A DNA stretch of 64,000 nucleotides from NCBI GenBank assembly GCA_905220665.1, contig CAJNAR010000016.1, forward strand, positions 186,001-250,000, given 5' to 3'. The position numbers and the translations under genes were made by a program. The notes under the pieces are model-generated. The model saw only the letters and a list, made by a program, of their open reading frames with translations, was not told the DNA's origin and ran no database searches. Below are positions 2,555 to 60,500 of the stretch, piece by piece. The DNA is from Albugo candida (lineage: Eukaryota > Oomycota > Peronosporomycetes > Albuginales > Albuginaceae). The stretch's first letter is position 1, and every line of letters starts with the position of its first letter.

Positions 2555-5530
2555 ATGTATCCAAGAACAGTATATCGTCCAGTGGAGCAAGAAGATTCCG
2601 ACGATGAAACAGAGAAAAGAGCACTCGGAATAAGACGCAGTAGTTGCGATCGATACCTTCCCCGTCAATGCTCCAATTGGCAGCGTTTTTTGCGTTTGAC
2701 GTGTCTCCTACCGACTTTTTTCCTCCTTCTAATGTATCTGTACCTAAATGCTACACTTAATAACACAGAAAGCTGTGCGCTGCAGCGAGAAATCAAATTA
2801 CAGAATCGCTCAAGAAACTCCAATCTGTTTCGTTCGACGTCCAATATCCTTCCGAGCGAGCGTTTTGCTCGTTTGGGTCAAAAAGGAGCAACAATTTGGT
2901 TCACAGGGCTTTCTGGAAGTGGCAAATCGACAATTGGGAAGGCGGTAGAGCGCTTATTGTTGCAAAATCGAGCTCATGTGGTCCAGTTGGACGGTGATAA
3001 CCTTCGAATGGGGCTCAATCAAGACTTGGACTTCTCAAACGCCGATCGAAGGGAGAGTATTCGTCGAGCAGGAGAAGTTGCAGCGTTATTTTCAGAAACG
3101 GGTGTCATCGCACTAGTGACCTTGATATCTCCATTTCGAGAAGATCGAAAAGTTGTCCGAGAAATGCACAAACAAAAAGGCATTCCATTTTATGAAGTCT
3201 TTGTGGATGTGAATATCTCCGTAGCCATTGAGCGCGATCCAAAAGGGCTGTATGCTCGAGCCATCAAAGGCGAAATCAAAGAGTTTACTGGAATTTCTTC
3301 ACCTTATGAGCCGCCAACACAGCCTGAGATACACCTGGACACTGCGACTATGAGTGTTGAAGAAGAGGCTCATATCCTGATGCGGTATATCACAGCACGA
3401 GGCATTTTGACTGGGAAACAAGTTGTGGACGAGTACACAGGGATTGCGGTCGCAGATGGAGTAGGCACCAATGCAGAATTTCAGACTCGATATCCCACTG
3501 AAATGGCCTCCAAATACGCAGATATGGACCAGTATCCTCGCGTATTGTTGCGGCATGAAGATGTCCACTGGCTGCAGGTTATTGGGGAAGGATGGGCATC
3601 TCCACTGAAAGGATTCATGCGGGAAGGCGTGTATCTCCAATCACTGCACTTTAGCAGTGCTCTGTATGCAGGCAACACAACAGAAATGGATCTGCTGTCA
3701 TTATCTCCTTCCAATTCTCAATCCAATTTCAGCCTCGACAAAGCCGAACGTATTAGTTTTCCCGTTCCAATTGTGCTTCCAATTCACAATATCTCAAGAA
3801 CTCGTATCGGAACCGCGACAAAAGTCATTCTTGTGGGTCCATCAGGTGAAGACCTGGCTATCCTCCATGATCCTGAAATTTATCCTCATCGGAAAGACGA
3901 ACGAATCGCACGAACATTTGGCACAAGTGATACTCAGCATCCCGCCATTCAAGAAATCCTCCGCGCAGGCGATCTGCTGCTTGGAGGAGAAGTCGAAATG
4001 TTGCAACGAGTGCGGTACAAAGATGGACTTGATGTGTATCGCTTGACGCCTACAGAACTACGCCAGCGATTCAAACAGATGAATGCTGATATCGTTGTCG
4101 CCTTCCAAACCAGAAATCCGACTCATGCGGGTCATGTGTACCTCATGGATGCTGCACGTAAACAACTCATCAAAAAAGGCTTCAAGAATCCGGTACTGTG
4201 GCTTTCACCGCTTGGAGGCTGGACAAAGGACGATGACGTGCCACTAGATGTTCGAATCAAGCAACATGAAGCTGTTTTGAGTTCGGGAATGCTCAATGCT
4301 AGCAGTACAGTCCTCGCAATCTGGCCTTCACCGATGATATACGCTGGCCCGAAGGAAGTACAATGGCATGCAAAAAGTCGCAGAAATGCTGGTGCGAGTG
4401 TCTTTATTGTTGGACGCGATCCTGCAGGAATCAAATCACACGGTAACGATCTGTATCATCAAGATCACGGGCGATTTGTGCTTCATGTCGCCCCAGGCTT
4501 GGAAAGTCTCCAGCTCATGTCCTTTGACAAAGTGTACTATGACGTCCGCGATCATCAAATGAAGCCGATGGAGACTGATCGTAAAGCGGATTTTCTCTCC
4601 ATTTCTGGAACACGTATGCGCAAAATGGCTGAAAAAGGGCTTGTGGAATGCTCGGGCGATATTGTGCCGAAAACATGGGAAGAGAATCCGACCTGTGTAC
4701 CTCGAGGCTTTATGGTCGATTCAGGGTGGCAAATCATGATCGAATATTACAAGCATCGGTCTTTCAATTGGCTTGCATTCTCTATCCAGCAATCCAAGCC
4801 TTTTCTTGACTCGACTCGGAGCTTTCAAAGCGCTGGGACGTATGGACAGCCAGATTTTAAGCTATTCTTTCAGGATACAAATTCAAAGCTCATTTCTCCG
4901 TGGCACGATATCCCGCTGCTTTTACCTGAAAAGCATTTGTACAATTTTGTTGTGGAGATTCCCAAAGGCGTGATGTACAAGATGGAGGTGAATAAAGAAC
5001 ACAAGAACAATCCAATCATGCAGGATACCACACACAATGGCACACGTGGACGAACCTTTTTGTATGGGATTCCCTTTTTCAATTACGGGATGTTCCCACA
5101 AACGTGGGAGAATCCCAAGATGCGAAATACAGACGGAAATGGGGGCGATAACGATCCATTGGATGTATTGGAGATTGGAAGCAGAACATTACCGATGGGA
5201 TCTGTCAATCCAGTGAAAATCCTCGGTAGTCTTGCACTCATTGATCAAGGCGAAATCGACCATAAAATCCTCGCTCTATCCATCCACGATCCAGAAGCTG
5301 ATCGCATCCATTCGGTCGACGATTTGAGACCTGGTGTTCTGGACGATATCATCGACTGGCTGCGTAATTACAAGACAGCTGAAGGGTACCCGATAAATCA
5401 TTTTACACAAGAGCATCCACTCCCACCGAAAGAAGCAGAAGAGATCATCATCTCGACCCATGATCAATGGAAAGCATTGAGGAATGGATCAATTGAGCAG
5501 AAGGCGTTCTTCTTGGGAACAAGCTCCTAA
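2555..5530 (+). CDS. APS kinase - ATP sulfurylase - inorganic pyrophosphatase fusion
   Basis: This 991-residue protein joins three consecutive steps of sulfate activation. The APS kinase part (about 108-290) has the P-loop GLSGSGKST at 118-126 and a KGLYARA motif. The ATP sulfurylase part (about 310-720) has QTRNPTHAGH at 518-527, GRDPAGIKSHG and SISGTRMRKM. The family I pyrophosphatase part (about 770-991) has EIPKGVMYKMEV and GGDNDPLDV with D865, D867 and D870. Sulfurylase makes APS and PPi, the kinase makes PAPS, and the pyrophosphatase removes PPi and pulls the reaction forward. Such fusions are known in stramenopiles. A hydrophobic segment at about 46-66 after a basic stretch predicts a type II membrane anchor with the enzymes on the lumenal side. 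The frame is open further upstream, but the first ATG is at 2555. No intron is seen. Confidence 0.93.
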   Translation: MYPRTVYRPVEQEDSDDETEKRALGIRRSSCDRYLPRQCSNWQRFLRLTCLLPTFFLLLMYLYLNATLNNTESCALQREIKLQNRSRNSNLFRSTSNILPSERFARLGQKGATIWFTGLSGSGKSTIGKAVERLLLQNRAHVVQLDGDNLRMGLNQDLDFSNADRRESIRRAGEVAALFSETGVIALVTLISPFREDRKVVREMHKQKGIPFYEVFVDVNISVAIERDPKGLYARAIKGEIKEFTGISSPYEPPTQPEIHLDTATMSVEEEAHILMRYITARGILTGKQVVDEYTGIAVADGVGTNAEFQTRYPTEMASKYADMDQYPRVLLRHEDVHWLQVIGEGWASPLKGFMREGVYLQSLHFSSALYAGNTTEMDLLSLSPSNSQSNFSLDKAERISFPVPIVLPIHNISRTRIGTATKVILVGPSGEDLAILHDPEIYPHRKDERIARTFGTSDTQHPAIQEILRAGDLLLGGEVEMLQRVRYKDGLDVYRLTPTELRQRFKQMNADIVVAFQTRNPTHAGHVYLMDAARKQLIKKGFKNPVLWLSPLGGWTKDDDVPLDVRIKQHEAVLSSGMLNASSTVLAIWPSPMIYAGPKEVQWHAKSRRNAGASVFIVGRDPAGIKSHGNDLYHQDHGRFVLHVAPGLESLQLMSFDKVYYDVRDHQMKPMETDRKADFLSISGTRMRKMAEKGLVECSGDIVPKTWEENPTCVPRGFMVDSGWQIMIEYYKHRSFNWLAFSIQQSKPFLDSTRSFQSAGTYGQPDFKLFFQDTNSKLISPWHDIPLLLPEKHLYNFVVEIPKGVMYKMEVNKEHKNNPIMQDTTHNGTRGRTFLYGIPFFNYGMFPQTWENPKMRNTDGNGGDNDPLDVLEIGSRTLPMGSVNPVKILGSLALIDQGEIDHKILALSIHDPEADRIHSVDDLRPGVLDDIIDWLRNYKTAEGYPINHFTQEHPLPPKEAEEIIISTHDQWKALRNGSIEQKAFFLGTSS

Positions 5531-18537: not shown

Positions 18538-20897
18538 TCAGAATCCTTCCATTTCTTCGTCGTATCCGTCGAGATAAAAGTCTGAAGATTCGCCTTTCAT
18601 TGGCGATTCTGCAATACCGAAAGATCGTGTGTCCGGAGAGAATTCAACAAACATTGCCTTTCCGCGCTTTCGTTGCATTTGCTTGGCTGCTAAAACGTAT
18701 GTTGCATCTTGAAACTCGCATACGTCTGAATCCATAAAGTCGATATCCTGCTGCGCTCCAATTGACAATCTCCTCTCTTGCATCTCGCTACTTTGCTCAC
18801 AGTCCTTGTCTGCGCATGACTCGACTGAACACACACTAGAAGCATCGATTTCTCCGTCTGTAGTCTCTCCGTCGTCGTGCGTTTGGTCCTCATACTCGTC
18901 GATTATATGCTTTGTGTATTCGAGATTCTTTGCATTTTCGTGAGATGTCGGGTCGGCGTGCTTCCAGTACAGATAAAGAGAACTGATGTACTTGAAGGAA
19001 CGACGTAACAGATACGGGTCAAATGGGAAGAATGTATGCGGTAACTTCCAATTTGAAGTGCAGATTGTGTGGCTGATATTTTGGATGGAATCATTAACAG
19101 CAGAGGCTTTTTGTAAGGAGCTGCCGAAAGAACTGATAGATTGATCGATGCGTTCAGCACATTCGGGAGAGATCAGCTGGAAGAGTTCGGCAACATTGAG
19201 GAATTCTAACGTCACAGATTGTTGGCAAAATACGAGAGGACAAGGAGAGATTGTTTCGAATAGTCGTTCCCATCCGAGGCTTCGGAGAAAGTCATAGCTC
19301 TTGGGTGCATTCACCATTTCCAGACCTCGAAAGCATACCACATAACACACTGTTTGTAAAGTGGAGATGAAAATTGCTTTGTGAAATTGAGAAATCGATG
19401 GACGGTCATCTGCGGCTCTATCAATACCAAATCCATCATCGATCGGGGAAGGATCTTGTCCGTTCAGATACGATCGCTCGTAGATATCGACTTGATCGTG
19501 TAAATACCGCAATAAATGATACAAGGCTTTTTCGAGGTAAGTAGTCGACACGTATTTAGCTCTGGCCAGAAAGCTCGCCAAATATGCTCCACAACTCTGT
19601 CTTGTCACTGGTGGGATCTGGGAGGTAGGAATACGATCATCAGTTGGTTCATGTGCACACAAGCAGATCACTTACTTTTGGATCAATGGATGCCGTAATG
19701 AGATGCGAAATGAAGGCATTTTGATACTTTGCATGATATTGGCACAGATAAAATAGCAGAAATTGTGGATATTTGGATCGATGCGTGTTGAGGATAGAGA
19801 GCTCAAATGCTCGAAGTAAACTCCTGAAAACGTGCGCGGCTTCACAAGGGACGCATTCATTCCTCAGTTGACCCGATGCTTCCTCGAGATATTCAAACAT
19901 GACCAGCATCATTTTATCGAGTTTGTCAGCCATCTCATCAATATCTTCGACATCACCTACAGCCAGATTTTCATCCAAAAAATCATCCATGGTGAACATT
20001 GTCTCATCGGCTGCATCCAAGTCTTTTTCATCCAATTTGATCTCAACATCGATTTGAACGAGACGATCCACAGTCAATGCGATGATCTGTTCTTCTAGAG
20101 CTGGTGCATAGCTCGCAATTTTCATCAGATTTCTTACGTACGTCACTTGAACGATTGCCGCCATTCGTTTGTGAGGAAACGTTTGAGACAATATTGAGCT
20201 TAGGACATTCGTCGAAGTCGGAATGATCGTTAGCACCCGCTGTAATGCTTTGTGTACATACTCACTTCGACTAGAAACAAGTTCATCTGAATCTGCAGAT
20301 TCAAGGTTTTTGGGTCTCGCGAGATTTCTTACAAGCATGTGAAGTGTCGGTATCACAAAGACAGACTGAGATGATACCAAATTGAGTAGAAATGAAGTGT
20401 ATGCAGAAATAGTGGCGATCGTCTCCAAGGATGCTGACGATTCCTCTCCCTCGTGTAACGCATAATAAGAGAATTTGAAAAGTGTATCAAAGAGCGGTTG
20501 TAAGACTTCTGCCTCTCGAGTAAGTCGCGATATACATCGCGTCAGTGCCAGTAGTATTTTTCGACAAACTACCAGCGAGACATCGTCTTTGCTCTGCTGG
20601 GAACCAGTTACAAAGCGATCATCGGTCTGCTCGGATGGTATCATTACGACCAGGTGTTGGAGTAGATAGTTGAATTGTGTTGGGTTCCCCTGTGCAAATC
20701 CAGTCAATCATATTGCAGCAAAGTCTATTTGCTCACAAATGCACCTGTAGTCGCGTCTGTAAGGCATTTTCGATAAAGTTTTGCATTGCGGCAATCTCTT
20801 TCTCTTCTATCGGTTCAGCATGACTAACTTTTGAGCGCGTGTGAGCGCGATCCAGCGGCTTGAGACTCCCTTCGCACTTGGAGTCGACACTATTCAT
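18538..20897 (-). CDS. RRN3: RNA polymerase I initiation factor RRN3 (TIF-IA)
   Basis: The model joins 20897-20745, 20689-19676 and 19617-18538, with introns of 55 and 58 bp, giving 748 residues. Family features are the N-terminal HEAT-like helices, the acidic loop EDIDEMADKLDKMM and the core around RSKYPQFLLFYLCQY, followed by IPPVTRQSCGAYLASFLAR, which spans the last splice junction. The C terminus is acidic with a short hydrophobic/acidic tail. RRN3 bridges Pol I to the rDNA promoter and is a growth-controlled step in rRNA synthesis. The start ATG at 20897 gives a basic N-terminal peptide; no earlier in-frame ATG was preferred. Confidence 0.88.
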
Positions 20898-24432: not shown

Positions 24433-27400
24433 ATGCCTTCCCGATCCAAAATCTATGTATATGCACGCGAAGAATCCCATTCCGACAATGAGAATGCAAA
24501 TGTGCCAATACCAACGCGTCCAATCTCCACAGTCGCTGTAATGTGTCGTCACAGACCTTTTTTCCAACGATTCTCTCAAATACTCGTTCGATGTCGCGGG
24601 ACCGCACATTTCACAGTGCTTTTTCTTCCGTGCGCGTATCTCGTCGTCAGCCTTCCAATTCGATTTGGTCTTTTCTTTGATCCGTATGCTCCTTCAAACC
24701 AGAAATGGAGTTCCGCGCTGAGTGTTTGGACCGTTTTGGACGTTTGTATCGACATAATCGGTTTATGGGAATTCCTCCGTCGAGTCGAATGGAAGCGATC
24801 AATATCATTTCTCGATATTGGAGCTCTATTGCCCGTCGAACTGATCGCATTCGCGTATAAGCGATACAATCTCCTGCACATTCTTCGTCTGAGCAAACTC
24901 TCTCGACTGAGACTCTCGTCAATATTCCATTCCATCCCATTGACTCGACGATTGCGTACGGGAATGTCGACATTGATCATCGCCATAACTTGTGGAATCG
25001 CATTAGCTCATTGGTTTGCGTGTGTGTACATCTTAATCGGCCATTTGGAATGTGGCATCGATATGGAATTCTGTAGAGATACGCACTATGAAGCGAGTTG
25101 GATGATGCGTGACAGATTGCTTGGAAATGATCTCATTCGAAAGTACGCTCGGGCTTTGTATTGGGCATCTCGTTCGATGGTGTTGCTCGGATACGATGAT
25201 GTGACTCCCGTTTCCAGTGCCGAAACCATTTACGTCGTAATTGTCCAAATAATTGGCGCCATCTTCAGCACTAAAGTATTAGCCACTTTCTCGTTTATCA
25301 TTCGGAATCGAAATGCGCAACATGCGACGTTCCTCACGCACATTGACAATGCCAAAGGATATATGAAATCACGCAACATTCCACGTCCGCTTCAGCAAAA
25401 GATTATGAGATATCTCAATTACGTTTGGGAGACGCATAATGGCTTGGAAATCGATCGCCAATTGACGTTGTTGCCTGTACATTTACAATTCCAAATTGCT
25501 CATTCACTCAAAGCGAATCGATTGAGAGAACTTTGTTTCCTCGCGAAAGAGAGCGCCACTTTCATTCATAAATTGGTGCTTTCTCTCGTGTTGTGTGTCT
25601 ATTCTCCAAACGATTGCATTATGGAGCCGAAAATGAGCACGCGAATGTACTTTGTCGTGCGTGGGAAAATCCTTCTAACGGCTTTGGATGGGAAATTGCA
25701 TCGAAATTGTCAGCGTGGCGATCACTTTGCAGCCATTTGTCTCTTCGATTCGGAACGATGCGATGATCGAGCGATCGCAAAGACATTTTCTGAGGTGTAC
25801 GCGTTGTCGAAAACTTTGTTTGAGAAAGCCATTTGTGAATTCTTTGGCAAGGAATACGTTCAAGTGAGACGGAATATGGCCACAAAGTTGGAACGATATC
25901 ATATTCAGCTTCAAAAGACATCCAAACTTCTCGGCATACCGCGTGCGATGACAATCGCTTCCAAAGAAATAAATTCTCATGCGGAATGGCGTTTTCCCGA
26001 GTCACAATTTCGAGCTCAATGGGATGTATTTCGACTGCTTTGCATTTTGTATGTGGCATTTGAAGTTCCTTTCTTTGCGTGCTTTATGGGAAGTCATCGA
26101 GTAGAGACGATCTTTCATGAGACTCCAAGTCGAATTGCGTTTATCCTTACAATTGGAGTGGAGGTCTTCTTTCTCATCGATTTACTGTTGCGTTCTCAAT
26201 GGTTTGCGTATTGGAATTCTCAGCTTTTGATTCATGTGATGGATCCGAATTTGATTTTCAAAGCGTATCGTTCGTCGACTTTCGTTACCGATCTCATGGC
26301 TTCCATTCCAATTGCATTGATTCTCGAGTGTTTGGAGATAAAGAGAATTCCATGGATACGTTTACTTCGTCTTCTTCGATTGCGTCATTTACGTCATTCC
26401 ATACGACATTTCAGTCAGAATTACACGCTTTCTTCCAATATGACAATGATCGTATCGCTTTTATTGCATGTGACGCTGTTACTCCATTACGTTGGCTGTG
26501 TCTGGTACGTCATCTCTTGGACTGAAACGTTGCATTTCGACGCACATCACATCGACACTGACGGATTCTCGCGATCTCATTGCCTGTATTTGGCGTATAT
26601 GCATCAGAATTGCTCTTGGATTCGCTTCGATTGCTACGGTCAAATTGGAACGGTGTTCCCTGTGGAAATGGTGGAATCGGATCATCGCTTACGATATTCC
26701 ATTTTATTTGCATACGTTCGATCGATTTATTGGGCAGTTGTCGCTCTCACTGGTGTCGGGTATGGCGACATTGTCGCATTCACAACTGCAGAAAGCTTCT
26801 TTGCAGCTGGATGGATATTCGTCGGAGGAATTATCAATTTCGGTGTTGTTGGAGCGATGTCGACGACCATTTCCAGCTTACTGGCAAGCCATCATCACCA
26901 TGTGAATAAGTTGAATGCGGTTGAATTAGCGATGGAGACGCATCGAATTTCCAAGAAACTTCGCATCGATATCCATCAATTTTATGAGCATCATTACCAC
27001 ACGCGAGAGAGAGCGTATGAAAGCCAATTGTTATCTCATTTGCCGGAACAATTGTGTCATCAGATTTCTTCGCTTTTGCATTCGGAAGCCGCTAATAAAG
27101 TGGAGATTTTCCAATACGCAAGCCAAGACTTTCGCGATCAATTGACAGGTCATTTCCGACATCGAACGTATCAAAGCGGTGAGACATTGTGCTTTGAAGG
27201 GAATATCTGCCAGGAATTCTTCGTCATCATTCAGGGTCGAGTGAATGGCTTCTTCCAATCTCAGAGTGCTCCAATTTGTGCGTTGACTGACGGTCATTGT
27301 TATGGAGAAAGTGGCTTTTTCTTACGCAAATTGCATCCCATCACATTGGTAGCGGTATCGCGTGTCGAAGCTTCGGTTGTGTCTCAAGAGCATTTTGAGC

Positions 27401-30400
27401 CATTTCGACGGAAATTCCCACAGGAATCGAAGCGGATAAAGATGATTGCACATGAGATATGGCGTCAGGAAACGAATACTTTCGCAAAGATCGGACATAA
27501 TCTCAAGACGAGAGAGAAGCTTCGATCGCATGTCATGCTGACGAGTTGTTTGTATTCGCAGGCGGACGCACATCGACGTCAGAGTCTTCATACTTTGATC
27601 CAGAGTGCTTCCACGCACTCTCAAAGAAGCGTTCGTCATAGTTTAGAGTCGATTCGGACGCGATCACTTCCATTCCTTCCCAATGAAAATGATGATCCAG
27701 AGCTCATTTGTATCCGTCGTATGCATCGATGGAAGCTCATTCTGACATCTCTCATCTTCTACAACGCGTATATGATCATTTTCCGCATAGCTTTTCATTC
27801 CAAATTGTCCAAAATGCCGCGTATTGTCGACTCGATTCTCTGGGGAATGGATGCATGCAGCGATCTCATTTACATTGTGGACATTTGGCTTCATCTTTTC
27901 TACTTTGATTGTGTCAGTTTGCATGGAATTTGGAACCTCTTTCGATGCGAAGAAATCAATGTCAAATATCGTAATAGTCGTCGTTTTCGGATTCATGTGA
28001 TCGCATCGTTGCCGTTTGATTATCTCTTTCGAAAGACTCCGTTGGCGATAAGTCTCACTCGTGTCACCAAACTCATTCGATGCGTGCAACTTCCGTCCTT
28101 ACTGGACGATACGATTCTCCACATCCAACAGCTAGCGTCCAAAGATGTCTCTTCCTACTTGAATCCATTCAAACTGGCACTTATTCTCTTCCTCGCCGCT
28201 CATTACGCCGCTTGTATTTTCTTTTGGATCTCCGAGAACGAGTGTCAGCGTCACAAAAGCCATTGCTGGATCGAACATGATCACATTGTGCACGAGTATC
28301 ACGGGTCATTGCCGGCGTTGTACATTCGATCGTTCTACTGGGCGCTCACGACGCTGACACTTGTTGGATCGAGAGAAATTGTGCCTCGAGATCTTCTTGG
28401 GACACTCTGGGCGGGCTTCACTTGTCTCGGATGCACGTTCCTCATGAGCCACATTGTCGGTGAGCTATCCGAGTTGATCCTCCAAGTCGGTCGCGATGCA
28501 AAGGAGTATCAGAGACACATACGAAATCTCGAGCATTTGGCTTCTCAGCACAAGTTTCCCGCTTCCTTACGCGATCGAATGAATGCGTACTTGAGCTTCC
28601 AGCATCAGCACAAGAGCGGGAGACAGCTTGCAACGATATTTCGAGATTTGCCCGTGAATCTTCGCTTGGATTTGATGCTTCAAGTGTATGGTTCGTTGCT
28701 TCATTCGCTTCCCATAAGTCCATTTCTCTCACTCGCTCAGATAAATAATCTCTCTTTACATCTTCAAAGTGAGCTTTTTGTGCCTGGAGACGTCATTTTA
28801 ATGGAAAATACAATGGGAAATCGATTGTGTGTGTTGAAAGACGGATTCGCCGGTGTATTTTTGCAAGCTTCTGTTCTCATAAATGTGAGTATGTTGACAA
28901 GTGGATGTTTGTTTGGTGAGATCGCTTTCTTCCTTCCGTGTCAACGACGAATCGCTGGAGTTCGAGCGATTACATACTCTGAGATTTTGTTCATTTCCAA
29001 AGGCACGTGGAAAGAGTTGTGGATTGGCTCGGACTCTGTCGAACGATACGCGACTGAATCGATTCTGAAATGGGTTCGATCTCGATTGACGTGTTATCAG
29101 ACCGCCAATGTCGCGTTTGCTAGAAAGCTCGAGCGTGTTGGGAAGTCCAATGAGAAGAAAAAATCAAGCAGACGAAGGAGTTCGATACTTGGGCGTGTGA
29201 GCATTCAAGCTCCCCAATCATTGCTCGTGGAACAGACCAAATATCTCTTGTCCAAAGTGAGTGAGATGACCAGAAAATTGGAAGCACTTGAGCCCAAACG
29301 GATAGGAAACACGCAAAGTGAAAGCACGAGATCGATTGTGCGCGCAGAGTCGACTTTCTCGGAGGAATGTGTGATGAATGTTATGCCAATACGTCGATCA
29401 CTGATACATTTGATAACGCCAAAAGCCTCGGAAGAGATGAAGAAGGAATGTTGGCAGCGGATCGGATTGCTTGCGGCGTTGGAGCATTTTACAAATGATC
29501 GAATCAATAAATTGGCCGATAAAGAGTCCATAAAGCCAATGAGATTGAAAAGATCTCAACTCCGACGTGTGAGATCCTTACCGAGTGTTTGGGTTGACGC
29601 ATTTGATCAGACACGGCAGCATGACGCCGCTTTTCGGGAGAAACGAACGGTACGAACGAATGGGACGGATATGTCTCCAGCAATCGATTTCGAAACGTTG
29701 CAAAATTGTCATCAGGAACCGCCAATGTATGCGACTTTGTACGTCATCTACAAAGCGTTCCGAGAACGATCTTGGAATACTTCAGCTTTATCGATGGAGT
29801 ACGCCAAAATGAATGGAAGCATGCAAAGTGATCATTTTGTGTCGCGTATCCGCCAAATTGCTCGAATTTGGCAATTTATTCGACTTGGATTCGTGTGCTT
29901 TTACGCGTTACTTGTCCCATTCCGCGCGGGATTCGCCTCAAGTATCACTGAGACGGTCCATAGCGGCGATTTGATCGTTTGGCAAGTGAGTGAGAATGTC
30001 GTCGATGCACTTTGTCTGATGGATTTCGCATTTCAATTCCGCACCAAAACCGTATTTGAAGCTTTGGCTGTACTTCCATACGATCTCTTTGTGCTTTTAC
30101 AGCCACGCGAGCATTTTTCTCAGAAATGGTATTTGCTTTGCTATCTCCGTCTCCATAAACTTTTCCATTTGCTTCGATTCACTCAATTAGCTGACAAATG
30201 CTTCCAAATTGCCATTTTTGATTTCAAATGGGCGGAAGGGAAGCTCATGTTTGCGTGGTCTTTGTTCAAATATTTGTTAATTGGCCACTGGATCGCATGC
30301 CTTTGGTTCGGCAGCAGTGAGTACGCGTTGCGTATTTACGGCAACTCGTGGCTCTCGTACAGCGGAATGCTTGTTCCTCACATTGTAAGAGAAGGGAATG

Positions 30401-31413
30401 GCTTTTTGAGATCGTTTACGCTTTCACGAGTGTCCATTTCAATGCAATATTTTCGATCGTTGCATTTTGCTATCGGCTCCATAACGACTTTGTTCTATGG
30501 CGATGTGGTGTCCATGAATGTGCTCGAGTTATTCGTGGAAATCATTGTCATTCTATGGAGCATTTACGTCTTTGGAGCTTTGATCGGAGCTCATGGTGAG
30601 CAATTGGTCATGAACGCGAGCCATAAAGCCAATTTAGAGCAGAAAAGCGTCGATCTCGAGCATTATATGAAGAAGCATGAGCTTTCAAAAGATCTTCAGG
30701 AACAAGCTCGGCATCATCTTGGCTTTTGCGGGCATCCTGGTCGAGAATATCACGAAGATATCGATATGTTGTCACGTCATTTAAAAGAAATAGTTCTTCA
30801 CGAAATGATGCGTTCCTTCGTTTCGAATGTGATCGTATTCCAATTGTTTGATATTTGCTTTCTTCGCGCTTTGCTTCCACGACTAATGTCAGTGATTTGC
30901 ATTGATGGAGAGCGAATTCTGATGACTGGCGATATGGATCGAGCAATGTACTTTGTTGACAGAGGTCGTGTTTTGATGCTTAATGAATGCCAATGCGAAG
31001 TGTATCGATCGGCCGGCGAATCTTTTGGTGCATTGTCGCTTTTGTACGGCATTCCGAGCATGAACACGTGCACTGCAGTGACTTTGACAGAGTTGTATCG
31101 ACTGGATCACACTTCAATGGAGCTTTTACTGCACGTATTCCCGGAATATCGAACGATCATTCGACGAGATTGGATGCCCAAATCATTGCAATTGCTTCCT
31201 TCCCGAAAAGATGGGACTCAGAGTATGGAAATGAGCGTCAGCATTCCGAATTCCGAAAGTTTGAGCGGCAATTATGAGTCAGCTTTTGTCTGTCGGTCGC
31301 GACTCGAATTGCTTGGAAGCCTACACAGTAATGTCGAGGGTGTAGAAGCAAGAAACATTATCTTTTCAAGCACGAAAGCAGCCAAGGTATCCACGCAGAG
31401 ATTGATGGATTGA
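24433..31413 (+). CDS. Four-repeat (pseudotetrameric) cyclic-nucleotide-gated channel, CNGK-like
   Basis: One uninterrupted frame of 2326 residues holds four tandem units of the HCN/CNG type, each with S1-S6, a C-linker and a cyclic-nucleotide-binding domain. S4-like arginine arrays occur in all four (for example LLRLLRLRHLRHSIRH in repeat 2). Pore motifs differ: GYDD 253-256, GYGD 776-779, GSRE 1312-1315 and FYGD 2021-2024. Phosphate-binding cassettes also differ: repeat 2 has GES (958) without the arginine, repeat 3 keeps FGEIAFF with QRRIA (1494-1508), and repeat 4 has GAL (2199). In animals CNGK is such a single-chain K+ channel, opened by cGMP in sperm flagella. The frame is open upstream but only with TTG; ATG 24433 is the first good start. 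No introns. It probably acts in a membrane of the zoospore, which is inference. Confidence 0.9.
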   Translation: MPSRSKIYVYAREESHSDNENANVPIPTRPISTVAVMCRHRPFFQRFSQILVRCRGTAHFTVLFLPCAYLVVSLPIRFGLFFDPYAPSNQKWSSALSVWTVLDVCIDIIGLWEFLRRVEWKRSISFLDIGALLPVELIAFAYKRYNLLHILRLSKLSRLRLSSIFHSIPLTRRLRTGMSTLIIAITCGIALAHWFACVYILIGHLECGIDMEFCRDTHYEASWMMRDRLLGNDLIRKYARALYWASRSMVLLGYDDVTPVSSAETIYVVIVQIIGAIFSTKVLATFSFIIRNRNAQHATFLTHIDNAKGYMKSRNIPRPLQQKIMRYLNYVWETHNGLEIDRQLTLLPVHLQFQIAHSLKANRLRELCFLAKESATFIHKLVLSLVLCVYSPNDCIMEPKMSTRMYFVVRGKILLTALDGKLHRNCQRGDHFAAICLFDSERCDDRAIAKTFSEVYALSKTLFEKAICEFFGKEYVQVRRNMATKLERYHIQLQKTSKLLGIPRAMTIASKEINSHAEWRFPESQFRAQWDVFRLLCILYVAFEVPFFACFMGSHRVETIFHETPSRIAFILTIGVEVFFLIDLLLRSQWFAYWNSQLLIHVMDPNLIFKAYRSSTFVTDLMASIPIALILECLEIKRIPWIRLLRLLRLRHLRHSIRHFSQNYTLSSNMTMIVSLLLHVTLLLHYVGCVWYVISWTETLHFDAHHIDTDGFSRSHCLYLAYMHQNCSWIRFDCYGQIGTVFPVEMVESDHRLRYSILFAYVRSIYWAVVALTGVGYGDIVAFTTAESFFAAGWIFVGGIINFGVVGAMSTTISSLLASHHHHVNKLNAVELAMETHRISKKLRIDIHQFYEHHYHTRERAYESQLLSHLPEQLCHQISSLLHSEAANKVEIFQYASQDFRDQLTGHFRHRTYQSGETLCFEGNICQEFFVIIQGRVNGFFQSQSAPICALTDGHCYGESGFFLRKLHPITLVAVSRVEASVVSQEHFEPFRRKFPQESKRIKMIAHEIWRQETNTFAKIGHNLKTREKLRSHVMLTSCLYSQADAHRRQSLHTLIQSASTHSQRSVRHSLESIRTRSLPFLPNENDDPELICIRRMHRWKLILTSLIFYNAYMIIFRIAFHSKLSKMPRIVDSILWGMDACSDLIYIVDIWLHLFYFDCVSLHGIWNLFRCEEINVKYRNSRRFRIHVIASLPFDYLFRKTPLAISLTRVTKLIRCVQLPSLLDDTILHIQQLASKDVSSYLNPFKLALILFLAAHYAACIFFWISENECQRHKSHCWIEHDHIVHEYHGSLPALYIRSFYWALTTLTLVGSREIVPRDLLGTLWAGFTCLGCTFLMSHIVGELSELILQVGRDAKEYQRHIRNLEHLASQHKFPASLRDRMNAYLSFQHQHKSGRQLATIFRDLPVNLRLDLMLQVYGSLLHSLPISPFLSLAQINNLSLHLQSELFVPGDVILMENTMGNRLCVLKDGFAGVFLQASVLINVSMLTSGCLFGEIAFFLPCQRRIAGVRAITYSEILFISKGTWKELWIGSDSVERYATESILKWVRSRLTCYQTANVAFARKLERVGKSNEKKKSSRRRSSILGRVSIQAPQSLLVEQTKYLLSKVSEMTRKLEALEPKRIGNTQSESTRSIVRAESTFSEECVMNVMPIRRSLIHLITPKASEEMKKECWQRIGLLAALEHFTNDRINKLADKESIKPMRLKRSQLRRVRSLPSVWVDAFDQTRQHDAAFREKRTVRTNGTDMSPAIDFETLQNCHQEPPMYATLYVIYKAFRERSWNTSALSMEYAKMNGSMQSDHFVSRIRQIARIWQFIRLGFVCFYALLVPFRAGFASSITETVHSGDLIVWQVSENVVDALCLMDFAFQFRTKTVFEALAVLPYDLFVLLQPREHFSQKWYLLCYLRLHKLFHLLRFTQLADKCFQIAIFDFKWAEGKLMFAWSLFKYLLIGHWIACLWFGSSEYALRIYGNSWLSYSGMLVPHIVREGNGFLRSFTLSRVSISMQYFRSLHFAIGSITTLFYGDVVSMNVLELFVEIIVILWSIYVFGALIGAHGEQLVMNASHKANLEQKSVDLEHYMKKHELSKDLQEQARHHLGFCGHPGREYHEDIDMLSRHLKEIVLHEMMRSFVSNVIVFQLFDICFLRALLPRLMSVICIDGERILMTGDMDRAMYFVDRGRVLMLNECQCEVYRSAGESFGALSLLYGIPSMNTCTAVTLTELYRLDHTSMELLLHVFPEYRTIIRRDWMPKSLQLLPSRKDGTQSMEMSVSIPNSESLSGNYESAFVCRSRLELLGSLHSNVEGVEARNIIFSSTKAAKVSTQRLMD

Positions 31414-42839: not shown

Positions 42840-45800
42840 TTATGTATCGAGTTGAGTCAATAATGCCGCGCCGCGCCGAATCCAATGGCTTTGGGAGTGT
42901 ATGGACGCCATTGGGAGACGTATAAACATGACGAAATTGGTCGAGTGACCAGTTGTCGACAGCGTTCCTCGTCGTAGAGATGTGCGATACATTGGACATA
43001 AATATACATGAGCGGTGCCTTGAGGCTCGACCTCACGCACAGACTCGATGTCCTCACGGCGTCTCGGTATCAGATGGATAATCGGCATGGGCACATGCAA
43101 CTCTCGGGGTTTTGATTCCGTGATGACTATCTTTTCAAAATCCCATCCTGCTCCTTCTAAAAACAAGCCCGAAATGTATGCACCATCATCGGCTTTTTCA
43201 TGGATCAATGAAGGCGACACAATGGACAAAATGGTCATATCGTATCCGACTTGATCGATAGGAATCTTATACTTTCTAGCATAATTCTGAAGAATTCCAG
43301 TGATGAACCCTTGTGTGAAAAAGAACCCTGAAATCCAATACACAAACGGCGGCATTTTTTGCACAAACCATTCCCGTAAGAAATCCATTCTTTGCAAGAA
43401 ATCATGAACCCAGCTTCCAAGTGGTTTCAGTGACGGGTAGGACATTGCATCCCATCGTTCTGGCACCTGTCCATTGATCATAGAGTTCCCCATAGCTTCG
43501 AGCTCGGACGATAAAACCACAAATCCTTTGAGAGCGCGTTCGAGCTCATCGAGCGATGTCGAAATCACATTCAGAAGCTGATTGTATCGACTCAGTTCCT
43601 GCAATAACACCGTATTGGTGCTCTCCTCGTATCGTATCGGAAAATCGATGGCGGCTTGCTCCATATCGAAAGCTTCCGGCAGCCTGGAAGAAATATCGGA
43701 CACCAGCACTTTTAATTGCTGATCCCAGGATTCCATTGCATCGGTGGCATTCTTGGGCTGCATATTGAGCGCTGCGTGGAGGAATTCCATCGTTTTAGAC
43801 ACCGCCAGTGAGATATTTGCATTTTCGTGGAGCCCAAAGACTTCAGGACTATCATTGTGTGGTAGAGAGTCGATGAACTCTAAATGAGGCGTCATCGATC
43901 CTTTCCACGGGGGTACGATGTATACCCCTTGCGAAAACGTAAACGAATTGTCTAAAATCGAAGGGGTATAAATATCAGTTAAAAGTGCAAGAAGACACCG
44001 TCGGTCTTTATCATCTGTAACTCTTCCTCCATAATTACATTCTCCAGTTAAGTAACAAAGTGCATCAAATGGAATCGGATCGTTCGTTTTTAAGTCACGC
44101 AAGATGTGATAAAGCTGACTACTGGAAATAATGGAATCCGATAAAGAGAATACGTATGGAATATTCCATCCCAAAGGTCCAAATTTACCTCGTTCTTGAA
44201 TCATCGCATGGAAAAAACATAATCCGAAAAAGAGTTTCCGAAATTCATGTGCATACGTAAAAGTAGACTCTTCAAGCCAACTTGGTGAAATGGATGTGAA
44301 TGTTTTTCTAAGATTTGCTCGAATTCCTTGTGGGGGCTCATTAGTGATCTTGATGCCGCGCTGTAGCAGCGAAGAAGGAAAGGCAGGTGTTGGCTCACTG
44401 GTCAGCCAAAGGCGAAAACTTGGATGTGCTCGATTGGCTGTGATTTCTTCCGATATTCTGTCCAAAGTTGGCAACCAGCTAGTGGACAAATGACAATTTT
44501 GTAGACAGACCCATGTGCCTATGTCGACCGCTTCTAGAATCGCGCTCTCGGCTAGTGGACCTTGCCCTTGACCGAGCGAGATTGCAATAAGCTTTTCTGA
44601 GAAGCCCACAGCATCAGCTAATTTCACCAGCTCCATCATTGGATCTGCTCCAGGTGTCAACACAATGATCAAAGGTGTGGAACACGTAGAATCGTCAAAA
44701 CTGGCTTTGAGATTGAATGGCGGCGGCTCAATGTACTCTTGCCCCATTTCAGAAACGATGAAGGAGGTGACAGAAGGAAGGACAGCATCAGGACGAAGAC
44801 ATCGGACCAGCAAGAGCCGCTGAAATGCACTCAGTGGGCTTACAATTGGCATTGTAGTAAGGAATTCTAGAGGCTTGGAGGCGAGTAGAACACTTTCCCA
44901 AACTTGAAGTTGATTTGAATTTGAAAAAGACGTAAGAATCGGCACGAACGGCGGAAATGTCTGTAAACCAATCAGATTCGTCCATACCGAATCTGTGAGC
45001 CAATGATCAGTTTCAGTTGGTTTACTATATTTTTCCTGAACCTGTGTGTTGCCCGTAAAAAAGTACCGAACCTCGGAAGCGTGTACGCGTTTTTCCGTGC
45101 TCATCACCTTCACTGTTAACAAAAACGTGAACAGCAGTTTGTCTTTTTCAAACAGTGAGCGACAAACATGTTGATATAACAATAAAGTAAAGGTGCTATT
45201 AAGCGACCATAACCGCTCTTGTAACTTTGTCGCTCTCTCCGTTTTGGAAATGGCGGTCCCAAACAAATGAATGTACCATTCTAATGAATACTGGTACATC
45301 GGATCCAATACATTCAAGTCACATAAACAAAAAAACAGTTGCGCCGATCGAGTCGCAACAATTTCATATGCGGCACGCTTTTCTTGAATACGTTCTTGCG
45401 TGCTAGCTGCTTCCCGCACTTTGTCCTGGATTGTAACCGCAGTCACTTTGGAAGCTCCGAGCGTTTCAATCAGACTTTGATCACTCAGAATGTTTCCTTT
45501 GGCACTTTCAAGTAACCTCAAAATTTCATCTTCAATTTCTTGCAGCATTTTCTTATGCTTGGCATCTTCTACGACCAATTGTTCTCTCTGCTGTTCCAAG
45601 ACCGGTTCCTCCTTTGCAACAATAATTCCCAGCATCTGATCCTGGAGCCCTTCAGGAGTCGCCATAAAATTCACCACATTCACTTTTGCATACACTTCCG
45701 CTGTAAATTTCGGGTTTCCAACATTTGTGGTAAGATACAGTCGAAAACTCGGATCGTATTCAACCACACTGTCACCAAACTGTATAGAATGAATATCTCC

Positions 45801-48800
45801 TTTTCTGCTCGTTTGCTTGCGCAGAATCGGATCTAACACCGGATCCAATGGAATCGGTACATTTTCCAATAAAACAGCCGCACCAATCATAAGTGCGTGT
45901 TCCAGTGCACGCAAAAACCCGTTCTGATTTGGTCGTACAACCTTTAAATTTGACGAATTCATATTTCGAATCCACGTATTCGCCTGATTCTGAGGATCGA
46001 TCAGAAGCGGCCAACGAGAACTTTGCTGAATCAGAATTGCATTATCAATAGAGAACGCGTCATTCGGAAGCTTGGCGATCGTCCACGTTCGAATTTGAAC
46101 CGGATCACTCAGTGTATCGGCAAAAGAAAACGAACCAGAGCAAATAAGAGGCTCTCCTTGCGCCTGAATACACGCTATCCATTGCTGTAAGGCCTTGGCT
46201 CGAAATACGCTGGTAAATGCGCCCAAGTACGATATAACACCCGAACAGAGCAAGATATCGCCAACCATATTCGTGTAGATCGTTTCCAGTCGCAATAACA
46301 TTCCTTCCCAACGCAATTTCTCTCCCCCTAGACCATTGATAAGCTGTGTAGCCCTCGATAACTTAACACAACAATCGCCGACTTGCTGTTGCAAATCTAA
46401 TTTCCGCTCATTGGCTGTCAGTAATTCGTTCTCTAATCGATTGACTTTATCGAGCACAAGCTGGAGAGCGGTTTGTTTACTTTGCAGTTCTGTTTGTGCT
46501 TTTAACAACGTTTCTGTGGCGACTTCTAATGCCTCTCGTTTAGGTGCGACTACCTTAGCCACTGAGTGATACACGACCATCGCATGAACCCACGCACATA
46601 AACCTGACGCCGCAAGACTCGCTTTCTTAATTTTATCCGCTTGAAAGTCAGAGTTTTTAGTGTACGGCTCCACTTTTTCGATGGCTTCGGGGCGAATATG
46701 ATCTTTATCATACTCGAGTAAATTCTGTAGGAAACGCGTATCCCCGAGAAGATGTTTTTGCGCCGGAACCCAGTAATCGTCAATCTTTCGTGTTCCATTG
46801 GGGTCCTTGATCTTCACAGGTGCTACATTCATCATAATACAAACCGCCTCCATCACGAGCTTGACGCCATCTGGCGGCTTTTTCATCGCTTTAATTTCAG
46901 TGATATCGCCTTTCGTGAGTGTTTGTAGCGCCTGTAAAGCATTCTCTAACGCCGGAATCGCCTGAGCCAATTCGGCTTCACAGCTCTGTTTAATAGAATT
47001 CGCGGTAGCCGCTTGATTATTACATAATTGTTCTTCGGCGGCGACATTATTTTTAGTCCAATTGGCTTCTTCCTGTTCGTGCGAAATGGTTTCTAAAAGG
47101 GCGTCGGTATCAAAAGTTGCGAGTTTTAATTGTGGCTGTAAAGCTTCAAGTTCAATTTGCATCTGCTGAACCTGTTGCGCGGTATCCACAAGTTTGGAAA
47201 GACCGGTTGCGTAACGTTTAGTGCGTGTGGCAATGTCGTTGCGTGTGTGGTGTAATAGTCGCTTGAAGGTATGGAGAAGCTCGAGGTACGAGGCCGGCGT
47301 GATGAAACACTGACGATTTACTATGTGATGGTATTCGAATGCGATTTGTGTGACGGAATTTTGTATGTGCATGCAACAATTCGCTAATTGGGTCTGAAGC
47401 TCAATGCTGAGGTCGGGAATATCGCTTAGGAAATGGTTGGCTACAGATAAAAGCGCTTCCTTAGGCCATTTCGTGAACCAATCGATCGTACAGCAATTGA
47501 CAAATGATGGAAACATGCGAAGTCGTCGACGAAACGCATCGCTATCGGGAGATAGAGCGAGGACAATGTGAAGATTCGATCGACAGCGTGAGACGAAGAA
47601 CGAATACACGTCAAAAGCTCCTTGAGATAACGCGACAGAATCCAATGCGTCCTGAATCTGACTGAGCTCTTCGACGGTCCATAGACTCGATACTTCGCCA
47701 GTGTTTAAAAGAGCATTCACATCGTCCAAGAAACATTCCTCCACGATTTGTGAATCGGATAAGAGGAACACTGTCGGAAGATTTTGAACGCCTGCAAGTT
47801 GTAACACACGTTTAAGATCTGTTTTCCACTCGGTCAAGCCGTACGAGCGAGCTATTTCCAGCTGGATGAGATGATACTTTGCCATAAACGCGGCCAAAAT
47901 CGTAAGTGATCGACGTCCACTGCCTCCCATTCCAACCACAAGCGCATGGCCGTACGGCTGATGAATCACTCGTGAGATCCGTACAATGTGTTCGATAGCA
48001 TTTTGAAATAAAACCAAGTCCATTCGAGTCGATCTTGTCTCATTATACTCTTCCAAAGAAGCTTCCATAGCCCTCTGAAGCATTTGACGATCGTTTAAAT
48101 TCACGTACGATTTCTCTCCATCGGAAATGGTGCTGAAATTCCCGTACAAAAGCGTACGATTCGGACCGAGGATTGCCTTATACTCGAGGTTGAAACACTT
48201 GGTCACGGTCGCCTCCAATGTCGTGTGAAACCACCGTCGATCATCGCCGTTGATCAGCCGATCCGAGAAGACACGCAGACATTCATGACTCCATAAGCGT
48301 ACGAGATCCTCAGCGTCTTGGATCGTCTGTGGTGTACCTTGCGAGATCCCTTGGAATACTTTTGATAAATCACGAAGATTGAATGTGTAATGCGAACGAG
48401 CTGGCGTTGGTAACAGAGAACTTGCGATTTGATGGTAGATTTCTAAAGTCGCTTGAACGATTCCTTGGGCTTGAGACACAACAGCGTCGTCGAAAGGAGC
48501 GAGCCACCATGCCGTAATTTGCGAGAAAATCACACTCAAGCAAGTTCGATCAAATGGAAGAAAATGAACCAAATGGAAATGTCGAGCATACCGCTGAGTG
48601 ATTCGAGATCGACCTCCGCCTGGAGGTCCCATAGCCGCAATGAATTGAACGTCGACAAGCTGTGTGAATAACGTGTTCTTGCGGTTGTACCATCCGCTGT
48701 GGTCGATCACTTGTCGAAGTAATTCGATCGGCGGCTGGGCTCCATACACCTCTTTTGTGGGCATGTTGAGATCGTCGACAAACACAACGCAATGCGATCC

Positions 48801-51800
48801 GACGCGTGGTCCTAAAACTCCTTTTCGACGTTTATCGAGCTTGTTTTCAATCAATTCTTGCGTCTGACTCGCGGTCGTTTGGGCTGAGAAATTGATATAA
48901 ATGCTCGTAAATGCATTTGCTTTTTCCTGAAGCTTTTGCTGAATCGATACGGATTTGCCTGTGCCGGTTTCTCCAGTGCACAGAATGTGATTATGATGCT
49001 CCAGCAACGTGCTGAGAATCCAAGAATGTCGTTTTGTGTCGATCGTTGGCACCAGTATCGACGTATAAGGCGTGTCATGCGGGATGACATATGCATCGAT
49101 TTCGGTTGAGGTTACCCAAGGAACCCAGCCAGCGGCATCGACATCAAAATGGTAGTCGTATATCGATCCTTCTTGTGGGAGCAGTGACGCTGTCGGGGTC
49201 GCTTTCATCTCATACGATGGATGTTTGTTTAGGAATTTCTCGTGGAGAGTAAAACATGACGAAGACAAGGAGCCAGAGAGAAGCTCACGAAAGTATCGAT
49301 CGAATCGAACGCGCGAGGGCTCCTCCAAAACGATTCCAATGGACCAAATAATACTCTGAAGAAAAATATTTTCCAATATGAAAATCACCGCTTTTGCATC
49401 AGCGATTAAACATTCAAAAAGTCGTAATAACGAAGCACACAGCTCCATGGACGATACAGCGGTAGGCACTGTGCAATGATTCTCAACGAAATACAGCAAA
49501 GGAGGCACAAAATGTGTGAAATTCTTCCGTATGGCCTCGGAAGCCGACTTTAAGGGCGCAGGTAATCGCGTTTCCAGCCAAATTTCAATCAACGAATAAA
49601 TTCCAACAGCGTTCCTTTCGACGTAAATCATACCGACACGGGATACTGTCGCCGGAGAAGCTTGCTCCAGATCATCAGTCTCAAACATAATCCTCATCCG
49701 CTCGGTCATTCGTATGATTTCGCCACTCATTAGACAAAGCTTCTTGTTGTCATCCAAAACAGTGTTCATGTTTTCTATCCAGAGAGCGTCTACGGGTCCA
49801 TCAAACATGACCCAATGATTCATATCCAACGTCTGATCACGAGCACATTCCCGATAGATCGATGCTAAGACACCATCACTCCATTCGTGGGTATTGGCAT
49901 CAAAGCTCCCATACAGCTTCCCGATACTGATCGATTTCGGGTTTATTGTATGGATGGAAATACGACTTGTGGCTCCATCGGCTAGATGGAAACACGCGTT
50001 TATAGCTTGAGCGAGCGTATGGATCATACACGTTTTACCAGACATTGTATTCCCGACAATCATGAGACCATGACGAATTTGAACGGTCTGATGAATTTGC
50101 ATCATTTTCTCTTGGAAGGAAGGGCTGTAAATCAATGGAATCGGTGGCGCAGGCTCCGGTCGAATAACAACTCCCTTGGAGCACACGGATGCTATCTGTG
50201 TCGTCAGCGAGTCATTGTCGACGTTGTTACACTCCAAATCATGAAACAGATCGGAAATGATACCTCGAAATAAAGCAAGATCTTGCGTTGTGAATTTCGG
50301 CACATTCACATCGCAAATTGACCTGAGAACGATGTTATCTTCTGTCCAGCGAGGATCCTGGCCGAGCTGTTGTCGAAGTACGCCTGCAGCCACGAGGATA
50401 GAATTGATTGCACGCATTCCGTAGTCGTAATGACTTTGTCCGGAACACTGCTCCGAGCACAGCTGTAGCACTTGTGTCAATTTCCGCGCATTCTTTCTCG
50501 CATTGGAAAATCCAAACGAGTACAATCGTATCTCAGCGATCAAAGCGTAGTCGGGGATCATCATAGCGCAAGGTCGAAATAAAGCTTTGAGATTATCGGG
50601 CAATTCAGCTCGACCAGCATACCCGGGATTCATTGTGATAAAGACATTGGCGCTTTTGTTCAAACGGAGTCGTGTGTTCTCAAACAGAAAAGTCTCAGCG
50701 TCGAGTCTTTTTGCAGTGTTTATCGTGAGAATTTGTTGCGCAATGACCGATAAAACTTCGATATTGATACGATTGAATTCATCAAAGCAACACCATGAGC
50801 CACAAGCAGCTAATCCTTTAAAGAATTTCGCCATTGCGAGGTAATCAAGGCCATCAGAGCAATTGAACACGACACATTGGATAGCGATCGATTTCGATAA
50901 GTCTTTGACAGTCTCTGTCTTACCCGTTCCAGCCGGTCCTTCAGGGGCTCCGCCGTATAATGCGTCAATAGCGCCCATCATTGTTCGATAACATCGATCG
51001 GTGAGTGGAGTTATGACTAAACGCATGGTGTTTCCAAGGTACTCGTAGCCGTACATGACGCGAGCATTCACGATCCGAGCTTGCAATTGAGCGTCTTGGG
51101 GCCCTTGGATCCAGTAGTACCGAAGCTGAGATACCCATTCAAAATCCTTCTCTTGCTCGACGCCTTTGGAGATCATATGAGCGATGGTGTCACGAGCATG
51201 CACATCGATCACAATTAAGGCGCCGATAGTCGTTCGATTCAACTTTGTGAGATCACCGCGTACGATCGTAACGATTCGGTCAAGCTGATTATTGAGCGCT
51301 GATAGATACGTCTTGAGTCCTGAGCATCCGTGATGTAGCATCGCCTCTGTGACCTGCGTGGTCCAGAATACCTGCGATACAGCCAAGACGACCTGAGCTG
51401 GCCAATCGAGGACCCAAGCCTCACGCAATGTTGACGGATACGATTCCAACGCACGTTGAATATGATCACGGATCGATTCCCATTGCACAGCTTCCAACTG
51501 CGCAAGCCACATTTCCACATTCCCTTTGTTAGCGGTGGATTCTGGTTCAATCGTACGGTGTAAATGCACACTTTCTCCTTCTACGCTTTTCATTTCTGTG
51601 ATGTGCAATTCCTTTTTCTGTTCATCTAACTGGAAACTCACTCGATGGATTCCTTCAAAGCATTTGCCCAAGTGTGGCTGGACAGCTCGTGGTTCTTTGG
51701 TTTGGCTTAAAATCTCCAGCAATTCATCATTCGACAGGAAAAAGAACCGAGGGAATGCCAAACGCTTTAGCTCGAGATAATCGCTGAGACCTTTTTGGAT

Positions 51801-60300: not shown

Positions 60301-60500
60301 CAGGATCATTCCCATATGTAGATTCTCCTTCCTTATATAGCGCGTTGTATGGCAAAGTCCACGATGATTCTCCCGTTCTAAACAATACAGTTCACATGTT
60401 ATTTAAAGAAAGATGAGAACAATCTCAACATTAGGTACTCGTGATTGAAATAATAGATTTGCTTGCTCTCTGGGTCAAAAACTTCTTCCCATGGAAACAT
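57392..60500 (-). CDS. WW - IQ - LRR - TPR protein with one in-frame TAG
   Basis: Exon 1 (60500-60439) and exon 2 (60377-57392) are joined by a 61-bp intron inside the first WW domain. Two WW domains (PWEEVFDPESKQIYYFNHE and AWRIAYDNESQTKFFHNV, each followed by TGESSWTLP), an IQ motif (SCASILIQSRWRGYMERK) and about 14 leucine-rich repeats follow. TPR-like helices are near the C terminus. At 59431-59429 an in-frame TAG cuts the LRR array after codon 336. The LRR register is kept on both sides, and the downstream 678 codons have no good start of their own. So this is a stop mutation, a base error or readthrough. LRR-IQ proteins are often ciliary, consistent with POC1 next door, but that is inference. 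Confidence 0.7.

Follow-up and report, generated by a model that had tools for sequence, protein, structure and literature searches.

Background

A stop-free frame on the plus strand of Albugo candida raises the question of what kind of channel is formed when four membrane units and four cyclic nucleotide-binding domains (CNBDs) are encoded in one chain. The frame lies at 24433..31413 of the 64,000 nucleotides analysed here (the window), and all feature coordinates below refer to the plus strand unless stated otherwise. A sequence-only reading had compared the protein with CNGK, the single-chain channel of sea-urchin and fish sperm, and had proposed a flagellar role in zoospores on the grounds that axonemal dynein and POC1 appeared to be encoded in the same window. 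According to a survey from 2020 (PMC7576140), four-repeat CNBD channels occur in metazoans and choanoflagellates and two-repeat channels in oomycetes. Among the literature matches listed, mostly non-subscription papers, none described a CNGK or other four-repeat channel from an oomycete or any other stramenopile.

Results

Translation of the genomic DNA gives 2326 amino acids plus stop without interruption (P0001), and the first frame of the antisense strand has many stops. A chance frame is excluded because Albugo laibachii has a protein that matches P0001 along its entire length (100%) with 73% identity. That the protein belongs to an oomycete is confirmed by the NCBI model of A. candida (P0002, lineage Oomycota, Albuginales), which is 100% identical to P0001 over 98% of the query. 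This model begins at Met37, 36 codons late, and leaves out 24433-24540. Translation from the Met at 24433 is favoured by residues 1-9 (MPSRSKIYV), which are identical in P0003 of A. laibachii.

The description of the frame as four S1-S6 units each with a CNBD is borne out by the translation together with Pfam and phmmer searches of each quarter. Each repeat comprises S1-S6, a C-linker and a CNBD, and the four are found at 24589..25893 (repeat 1, R1; aa 53-487), 26005..27447 (R2; aa 525-1005), 27709..29031 (R3; aa 1093-1533) and 29851..31185 (R4; aa 1807-2251). A long linker of 273 amino acids, much of it modelled at pLDDT <50, separates R3 from R4 (29032..29850; aa 1534-1806). The identity among the four repeats is 16-21%, and the number of Arg and Lys residues in S4 is 4, 6, 3 and 3 in R1 to R4, which makes repeat 2 the most charged.

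The proposed check with ion-transport and cNMP-binding profiles, expected to give four hits each, came out as expected for the whole protein with cNMP_binding (four stretches, PF00027, E 6e-40) and with Ion_trans_2 (four), whereas Ion_trans was found three times. When P0001 was cut in quarters, the CNBD was above the curated cut-off in all four and Ion_trans in three (R1, R2 and R3); for the membrane part of R4 only Ion_trans_2 was found, just below its cut-off (21.2 versus 22.5 bits). The R1-R3 quarters match CNGA1/CNGA3, SthK, HCN and KCNH entries in PDB over most of a repeat. The same phmmer search aligned R4, a quarter of 566 residues, with hERG at residues 51-480 and with SthK from S5 onward, the S1-S4 part of the SthK alignment alone giving only 4.9 bits. 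A family HMM, itself made from this channel family, spans R4 end to end, and the model of R4 reaches pLDDT 60-90 in most of S1-S6. Despite the weak Pfam signal, R4 therefore looks like a full repeat, judged by phmmer, the family HMM and the modelled helices.

The structure models are of moderate quality, with a mean pLDDT of 64.8 for R1-R2 and 61.4 for R3-R4. Membrane helices are modelled in all four repeats, mostly at pLDDT 60-90. Among the CNBDs a good model was obtained only for R2, the other three (R1, R3, R4) being mostly at pLDDT <60. Compared with CNGA-type chains, the R1-R2 model has TM scores normalised to the target of 0.63-0.67 in the first five rows, and the R3-R4 model is poorer (TM about 0.5, rmsd >15 A).

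Queries with P0001 and with a relative's canonical pore yielded 94 proteins, P0001 among them. A family HMM made from ten of these same 94 proteins found exactly four full repeats in 70, eight in one and one to three in 23, most of which are incomplete gene models or have another architecture. The four-repeat proteins are mostly from oomycetes of several genera, with one named labyrinthulomycete, Hondaea, and the best-match order of the repeats in full-length oomycete relatives is R1-R2-R3-R4. There are two subfamilies: A, with P0001 and most Phytophthora and Globisporangium rows, and B, with P0061 and others. Family members are named 'Voltage-gated Ion Channel (VIC) Superfamily', 'cGMP-gated cation channel alpha-1' or hypothetical in the databases, and NCBIfam has no useful family for the four-repeat channel. 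No Saprolegniales or downy mildew protein was found among the named matches of a search that requires shared words and has length limits, and no named animal CNGK among the matches of searches requiring shared 5-residue words, queries with the canonical R2 pore included.

Among the proteins with other numbers of repeats, P0004 from Pythium oligandrum (4070 aa) has eight channel repeats forming two complete four-repeat units, and is likely to be a fused gene model of neighbouring copies. P0065 (1501 aa) has three CNBD repeats, each with a canonical GYGD, and very long branches.

The earlier reading treated the gene as a single special one, which does not hold: no fewer than three four-repeat frames are present in A. 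candida, and another set of four repeats is divided over several frames. Copy B (L010) is a single frame on contig 163 at 78.7-86.2 kb. On the same contig, copy C (L014, 34800-44600) is one four-repeat frame of 2521 aa at about 35.9-43.5 kb. The four repeats of copy D (contig 15, about 245.7-253.0 kb) are in pieces over several frames. There is also a two-repeat frame with canonical filters on contig 7, and a 1189-aa frame with two filter motifs on contig 167 is probably a second two-repeat channel. In several further CNBD frames of A. candida the family HMM matches only the CNBD part.

The four filter sites of P0001 read GYDD, GYGD, GSRE and FYGD. In R1 (LGYDD, 25186..25200; aa 252-256) Asp replaces the second Gly of GYG, and R2 (VGYGD, 26755..26769; aa 775-779) is canonical. 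R3 (VGSRE, 28363..28377; aa 1311-1315) has Arg for the second Gly and Ser for Tyr, and in R4 (LFYGD, 30490..30504; aa 2020-2024) Phe replaces the first Gly. The Gly residues of GYG are needed for the usual carbonyl cage.

Filters and CNBDs were compared in 89 oomycete rows. P0004 entered as two rows, one for each of its four-repeat halves, and L010 was added; P0002 (equal to P0001) and P0065, P0066, P0085 and P0092-P0094 (other architectures or groups) were left out. Many rows are near-identical isolates, so the following counts over subfamilies A and B are not independent: the second-Gly site of R1 is D in 53/83, Y in 20/83, S, N or T in 10/83 and G in 0/83; R2 has GYG in 89/89; R3 has S or T at the Tyr site in 87/87 and R or K at the second-Gly site in 76/87; and the first-Gly site of R4 is F in 72/77 and W in 2/77. 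In R1, Asp is typical of subfamily A and Tyr of subfamily B (GYYD or GFYD). The filter residues of R2, R3 and R4 are kept across Albugo, Pythium, Globisporangium and Phytophthora rows.

Among the A. candida paralogues, copy C has GFAD, AYGD, NYGD and SYGD, with repeat 2 deviant too, and copy D has GFGD in R2, CFGD in R3 and CYGD in R4. As a control, six motifs in four CNBD-channel frames of A. candida outside the four-repeat family (two on contig 7, two on contig 167 and one each on 148 and 166, taken partly from a non-exhaustive pattern scan) were all GYGD or GFGD, and the deviation is thus not a general decay. Strong filter deviations are described as traits of single channels, with animal CNG as the sole clade-wide exception, in section 8 of Pozdnyakov et al. 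(PMC7576140). On the sequences aligned here, the oomycete four-repeat channels are a second clade-wide exception beside animal CNG.

An acid in R1 and a base in R3 tend to occur together. After removal of P0091, in which the R1 and R4 filters are garbled or misaligned, and of rows gapped at either filter, 81 rows remained. In subfamily A (60 rows), 50 have an R1 acid with Arg or Lys in R3, eight have neither and two have the acid alone. On a tree built without the filter columns the R1 acid was lost three times independently, each time with loss of the R3 base, and the base was lost twice more without loss of the acid. Nine of 2003 columns change on all three loss branches; among 1258 slow columns (at most 8 changes) there are two, the R3 base being one of them.

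This pairing was noticed before it was tested and the tree-based count rests on three events. The full set of 81 rows yields four independent pairs, of which three are concordant and one shows no difference (sign test p 0.25), and significance cannot be reached because the independent pairs are so few. The R3 base as the unique covariation partner of the R1 acid was rejected, since it ranks second of 1385 columns in plain correlation, behind column 138. In subfamily B the R3 base needs no R1 acid, because R or K is kept beside an R1 residue that is mostly Tyr. A coupled change of the R1 acid and the R3 base within subfamily A is suggested by these sequences.

The phosphate-binding cassettes also differ between repeats. 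In A. candida they read FAA...R in R1 (25717..25779; aa 429-449), where FG has become FA and both species of Albugo have Ala for the acid; YGE in R2 (27292..27354; aa 954-974), where GE is present in Albugo and the Arg absent; an intact FGE...RR in R3 (28903..28968; aa 1491-1512); and FGA...S in R4 (31015..31077; aa 2195-2215). Both the Glu of FGE and the subsequent Arg, which we take to be the residues in contact with the cyclic nucleotide, are present only in R3 of this species. Among oomycete rows with a letter, the R3 Glu and the second Arg are each found in 84/84. The R2 Glu is Val in most relatives. In R4, Glu is present in 75/78 rows and Arg in 73/78, and FGE with Arg is usual outside Albugo.

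The descent of the repeats was followed in a careful tree of 54 repeat rows, made without P0065, A. candida C and D, PlilA2, PramB and PinsA because of long branches or time. Oomycete and labyrinthulomycete-type repeats pair by position, with support of 95/89 for R1, 97/92 for R2 and 90/66 for R3, and the R4 repeats of both groups lie on one side of a branch at 73/83. The kinship between the groups is thus weaker for R3 and R4 than for R1 and R2. Only Hondaea is named among the labyrinthulomycete-type rows; P0093, P0092 and P0085 come from metagenome sources. A single clade of all 36 oomycete repeats was rejected, being 31.7 log units worse (p-AU 0.0113, in a test that presumes a group named beforehand, whereas this clade was named after the tree was seen). 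Since the repeats pair by position and the all-oomycete clade is rejected, the four repeats probably existed before oomycetes and labyrinthulomycetes separated.

R1 and R3 are sisters in the careful tree (95/90), and R2 with R4 as a single clade is compatible with the data (p 0.316). From these sequences an R1/R3-type half was probably doubled and an R2/R4-type half perhaps doubled too. A fuller, quick tree of 77 rows resolved R1 less well than the careful tree. In both trees the two-repeat rows from contig 7 of A. candida fall outside the four-repeat groups, on long branches.

A dynein heavy chain is indeed encoded in the window (42840-55547, minus strand; Pfam), together with WD40 proteins that may include POC1. 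In the same search these lie amid housekeeping and other genes (RRN3, ATP sulfurylase/APS kinase, a mitochondrial carrier, EST1 and more), and the neighbourhood was ruled out as functional evidence for a flagellar channel. Linkage means little in a eukaryote, so a dynein neighbour is no evidence of function.

Some neighbouring frames have features of their own. A 1000-aa frame at 2528-5530 (plus strand) combines APS kinase, ATP sulfurylase and inorganic pyrophosphatase domains. Homology to RRN3 continues across two overlapping frames on the minus strand (18538-19671 and 19649-20707), consistent with an intron or a frame break. At 57392-60385 (minus strand) an LRR+TPR frame adjoins a WW+LRR frame on the same strand, and the two are perhaps one gene.

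Data from other oomycetes bear on the stage of expression. In Phytophthora infestans expression at spore stages is reported for almost every cyclic-nucleotide gene, those for CNG channels among them, and the role of these genes is said to be unknown; the same text cites an older study in which the levels of cAMP and cGMP stayed constant throughout zoosporogenesis (PMC5322657). In P. parasitica, zoospore membranes are reported to contain cyclases as well as ten voltage-gated channels (PMC12223298). The family locus tag PPTG_06812 is absent from the main text of the P. parasitica zoospore membrane proteome, and three locus tags of family members had no mention in the main texts of the literature searched. 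A zoospore role of the A. candida four-repeat channel is plausible and a reasonable guess.

Discussion

The reading that we prefer, with a probability of roughly two in three, is that P0001 is a single-chain, asymmetric CNBD channel with specialised repeats, probably not classically K+-selective and gated by cyclic nucleotides, of a type present in oomycetes and at least one labyrinthulomycete. Architecture, conservation, the residue pattern of filters and CNBDs and the repeat phylogeny were computed, and from these we infer one-pore assembly, ion selectivity, gating ligand, stage and location. By homology, each repeat would form one quarter of one central pore, a pseudo-tetramer, in which repeats 1 and 3 would be opposite each other if the repeats ring the pore in order. 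With residues untypical of a K+ filter in R1 (GYDD) and R3 (GSRE), a canonical GYGD in R2 and FYGD in R4, the pore would be asymmetric, and it may conduct cations without a classical K+-selective filter. A cyclic nucleotide would open it mainly through the R3 CNBD, and in most relatives outside Albugo through R4 as well. The channel would probably serve signalling by membrane potential or by cations in spores and zoospores.

A more far-reaching proposal is that stramenopiles have their own four-repeat family, formed before the split, in which subfamily A carries a ring of Asp, Gly, Arg or Lys, and Gly with a selected pair of R1 acid and R3 base and a novel selectivity. The ring would be made up of the second-Gly sites of GYG in R1 to R4, with the acid and the base facing each other across the pore mouth. 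This is tentative and, taken as a whole, we regard it as possible rather than probable. If true, it would mean a cyclic-nucleotide-gated pore with a selectivity unlike that of other known CNBD channels.

The closest published architecture that we found is that of CNGK, and the protein could be a true CNGK orthologue, K+-selective, with cGMP hyperpolarising the flagellum and steering zoospores as in sea-urchin sperm. CNGK channels (ApCNGK of sea urchin, DrCNGK of zebrafish and SrCNGK of a choanoflagellate) likewise have four 6TM-CNBD repeats in one chain, and this part of the earlier comparison stands. The kinship of R1 with R3, and of R2 with R4, is also reported for CNGK repeats (PMC7576140), so that the relation between R1 and R3 is common to both. 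In the sea-urchin channel a single cGMP bound to the third CNBD suffices for opening (PMC4749565), and the third is the repeat whose CNBD alone keeps both putative contact residues in A. candida, and the spore expression of most cyclic-nucleotide genes in P. infestans (PMC5322657) would fit an orthologue too.

The K+ filter, on the other hand, is not shared: the text of PMC4749565 gives G(Y/F)GD for the CNGK filters, which in P0001 is found in one of four repeats (GYDD/GYGD/GSRE/FYGD). The four repeats of CNGK are described as nearly identical and as joined by linkers that are short and equal (PMC6259924), as opposed to an identity of 16-21% and the 273-aa R3-R4 linker in P0001. Named animal CNGK were missing from the protein matches, within a search that depends on shared 5-residue words. 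Nor do all CNGK behave alike, as the zebrafish channel is described as located mainly in the sperm head, gated by pH and not opened by cyclic nucleotides (PMC4749565). We consider orthology with CNGK unlikely.

It is similarly improbable that the protein is a sensor or scaffold with a non-conducting pore, whose voltage-sensor-like domains and CNBDs act on partners. Such a role would agree with the absence of a Gly of GYG from three of four filters. A dead pore would, however, be expected to drift, whereas the R1 and R3 residues change together and much of the odd filter is nearly constant (Ser/Thr in R3 in 87/87, Phe/Trp in R4 in 74/77), the third filter residue of R1 less so (D 53/83, Y 20/83).

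Oomycetes might instead have doubled a two-repeat tandem CNBD channel on their own. Such channels have been reported in oomycetes (PMC7576140), with published sequences from A. invadans and Ph. infestans, A. candida has one two-repeat frame on contig 7 and probably another on contig 167, and R1 and R3 are sisters as a doubling predicts. The rejection of the all-oomycete clade (p-AU 0.0113) speaks against it, as does the contig 7 sequence, which, albeit with long branches, is placed apart from the four-repeat groups, and an independent doubling seems unlikely. An artefact in which neighbouring one-repeat genes were joined through a missed stop or intron is hardly credible in view of the stop-free frame on genomic DNA, the recurrence of the same order of four repeats in annotated proteins from further species and the full-length A. 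laibachii protein with 73% identity.

What is new, judged by the sequences and by the account in PMC7576140, is a four-repeat CNBD lineage in stramenopiles, beyond the metazoans and choanoflagellates of that survey. About 70 full-length natural sequences with D/R and N/N or S/N filters can be used to probe the asymmetric rebuilding of a K+-type filter, and zoospore signalling gains a concrete candidate channel.

Relation to known channels

Several known types of channel bear comparison with the asymmetric single-chain CNBD channel of our preferred reading. The two-repeat CNBD channels of oomycetes (PMC7576140) belong to the same host group and are also built of fused 6TM-CNBD repeats, but P0001 has four. 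The third CNBD is the functional one in sea-urchin CNGK, and that of A. candida may correspond to it by its intact cassette, although in most relatives R4 has both Glu and Arg as well. The four CNBD repeats of Hondaea fermentalgiana P0094 ('cyclic nucleotide-gated cation channel') group with those of the oomycetes by position, R1 and R2 with good support, and yet its filters (GLGD/GYGD/VIGD/GYGD) are unlike those of P0001.

Animal CNG channels (CNGA/CNGB) resemble P0001 in repeat fold and sequence and also have a non-canonical filter. They are built of separate subunits, with mixed CNGA/CNGB tetramers according to PDB entry titles, whereas P0001 is a single chain, and in an alignment with CNGA3 their TIGE-type filter is not matched by P0001.

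The sodium and calcium channels (Nav/Cav) also have four repeats in one chain, each with its own filter residue. To our knowledge these four-domain channels have no CNBDs, and P0001, bearing four, falls outside the group (FVCC). The lysine of the DEKA ring is placed in domain III (PMC6259924). The base in repeat III and the acid in repeat I of this ring thus have the same positions as in P0001, which is an analogy only because the filter fold is another one. The logic of the DEKA ring and of the proposed subfamily A ring would be similar, with the latter sitting on a potassium-type filter.
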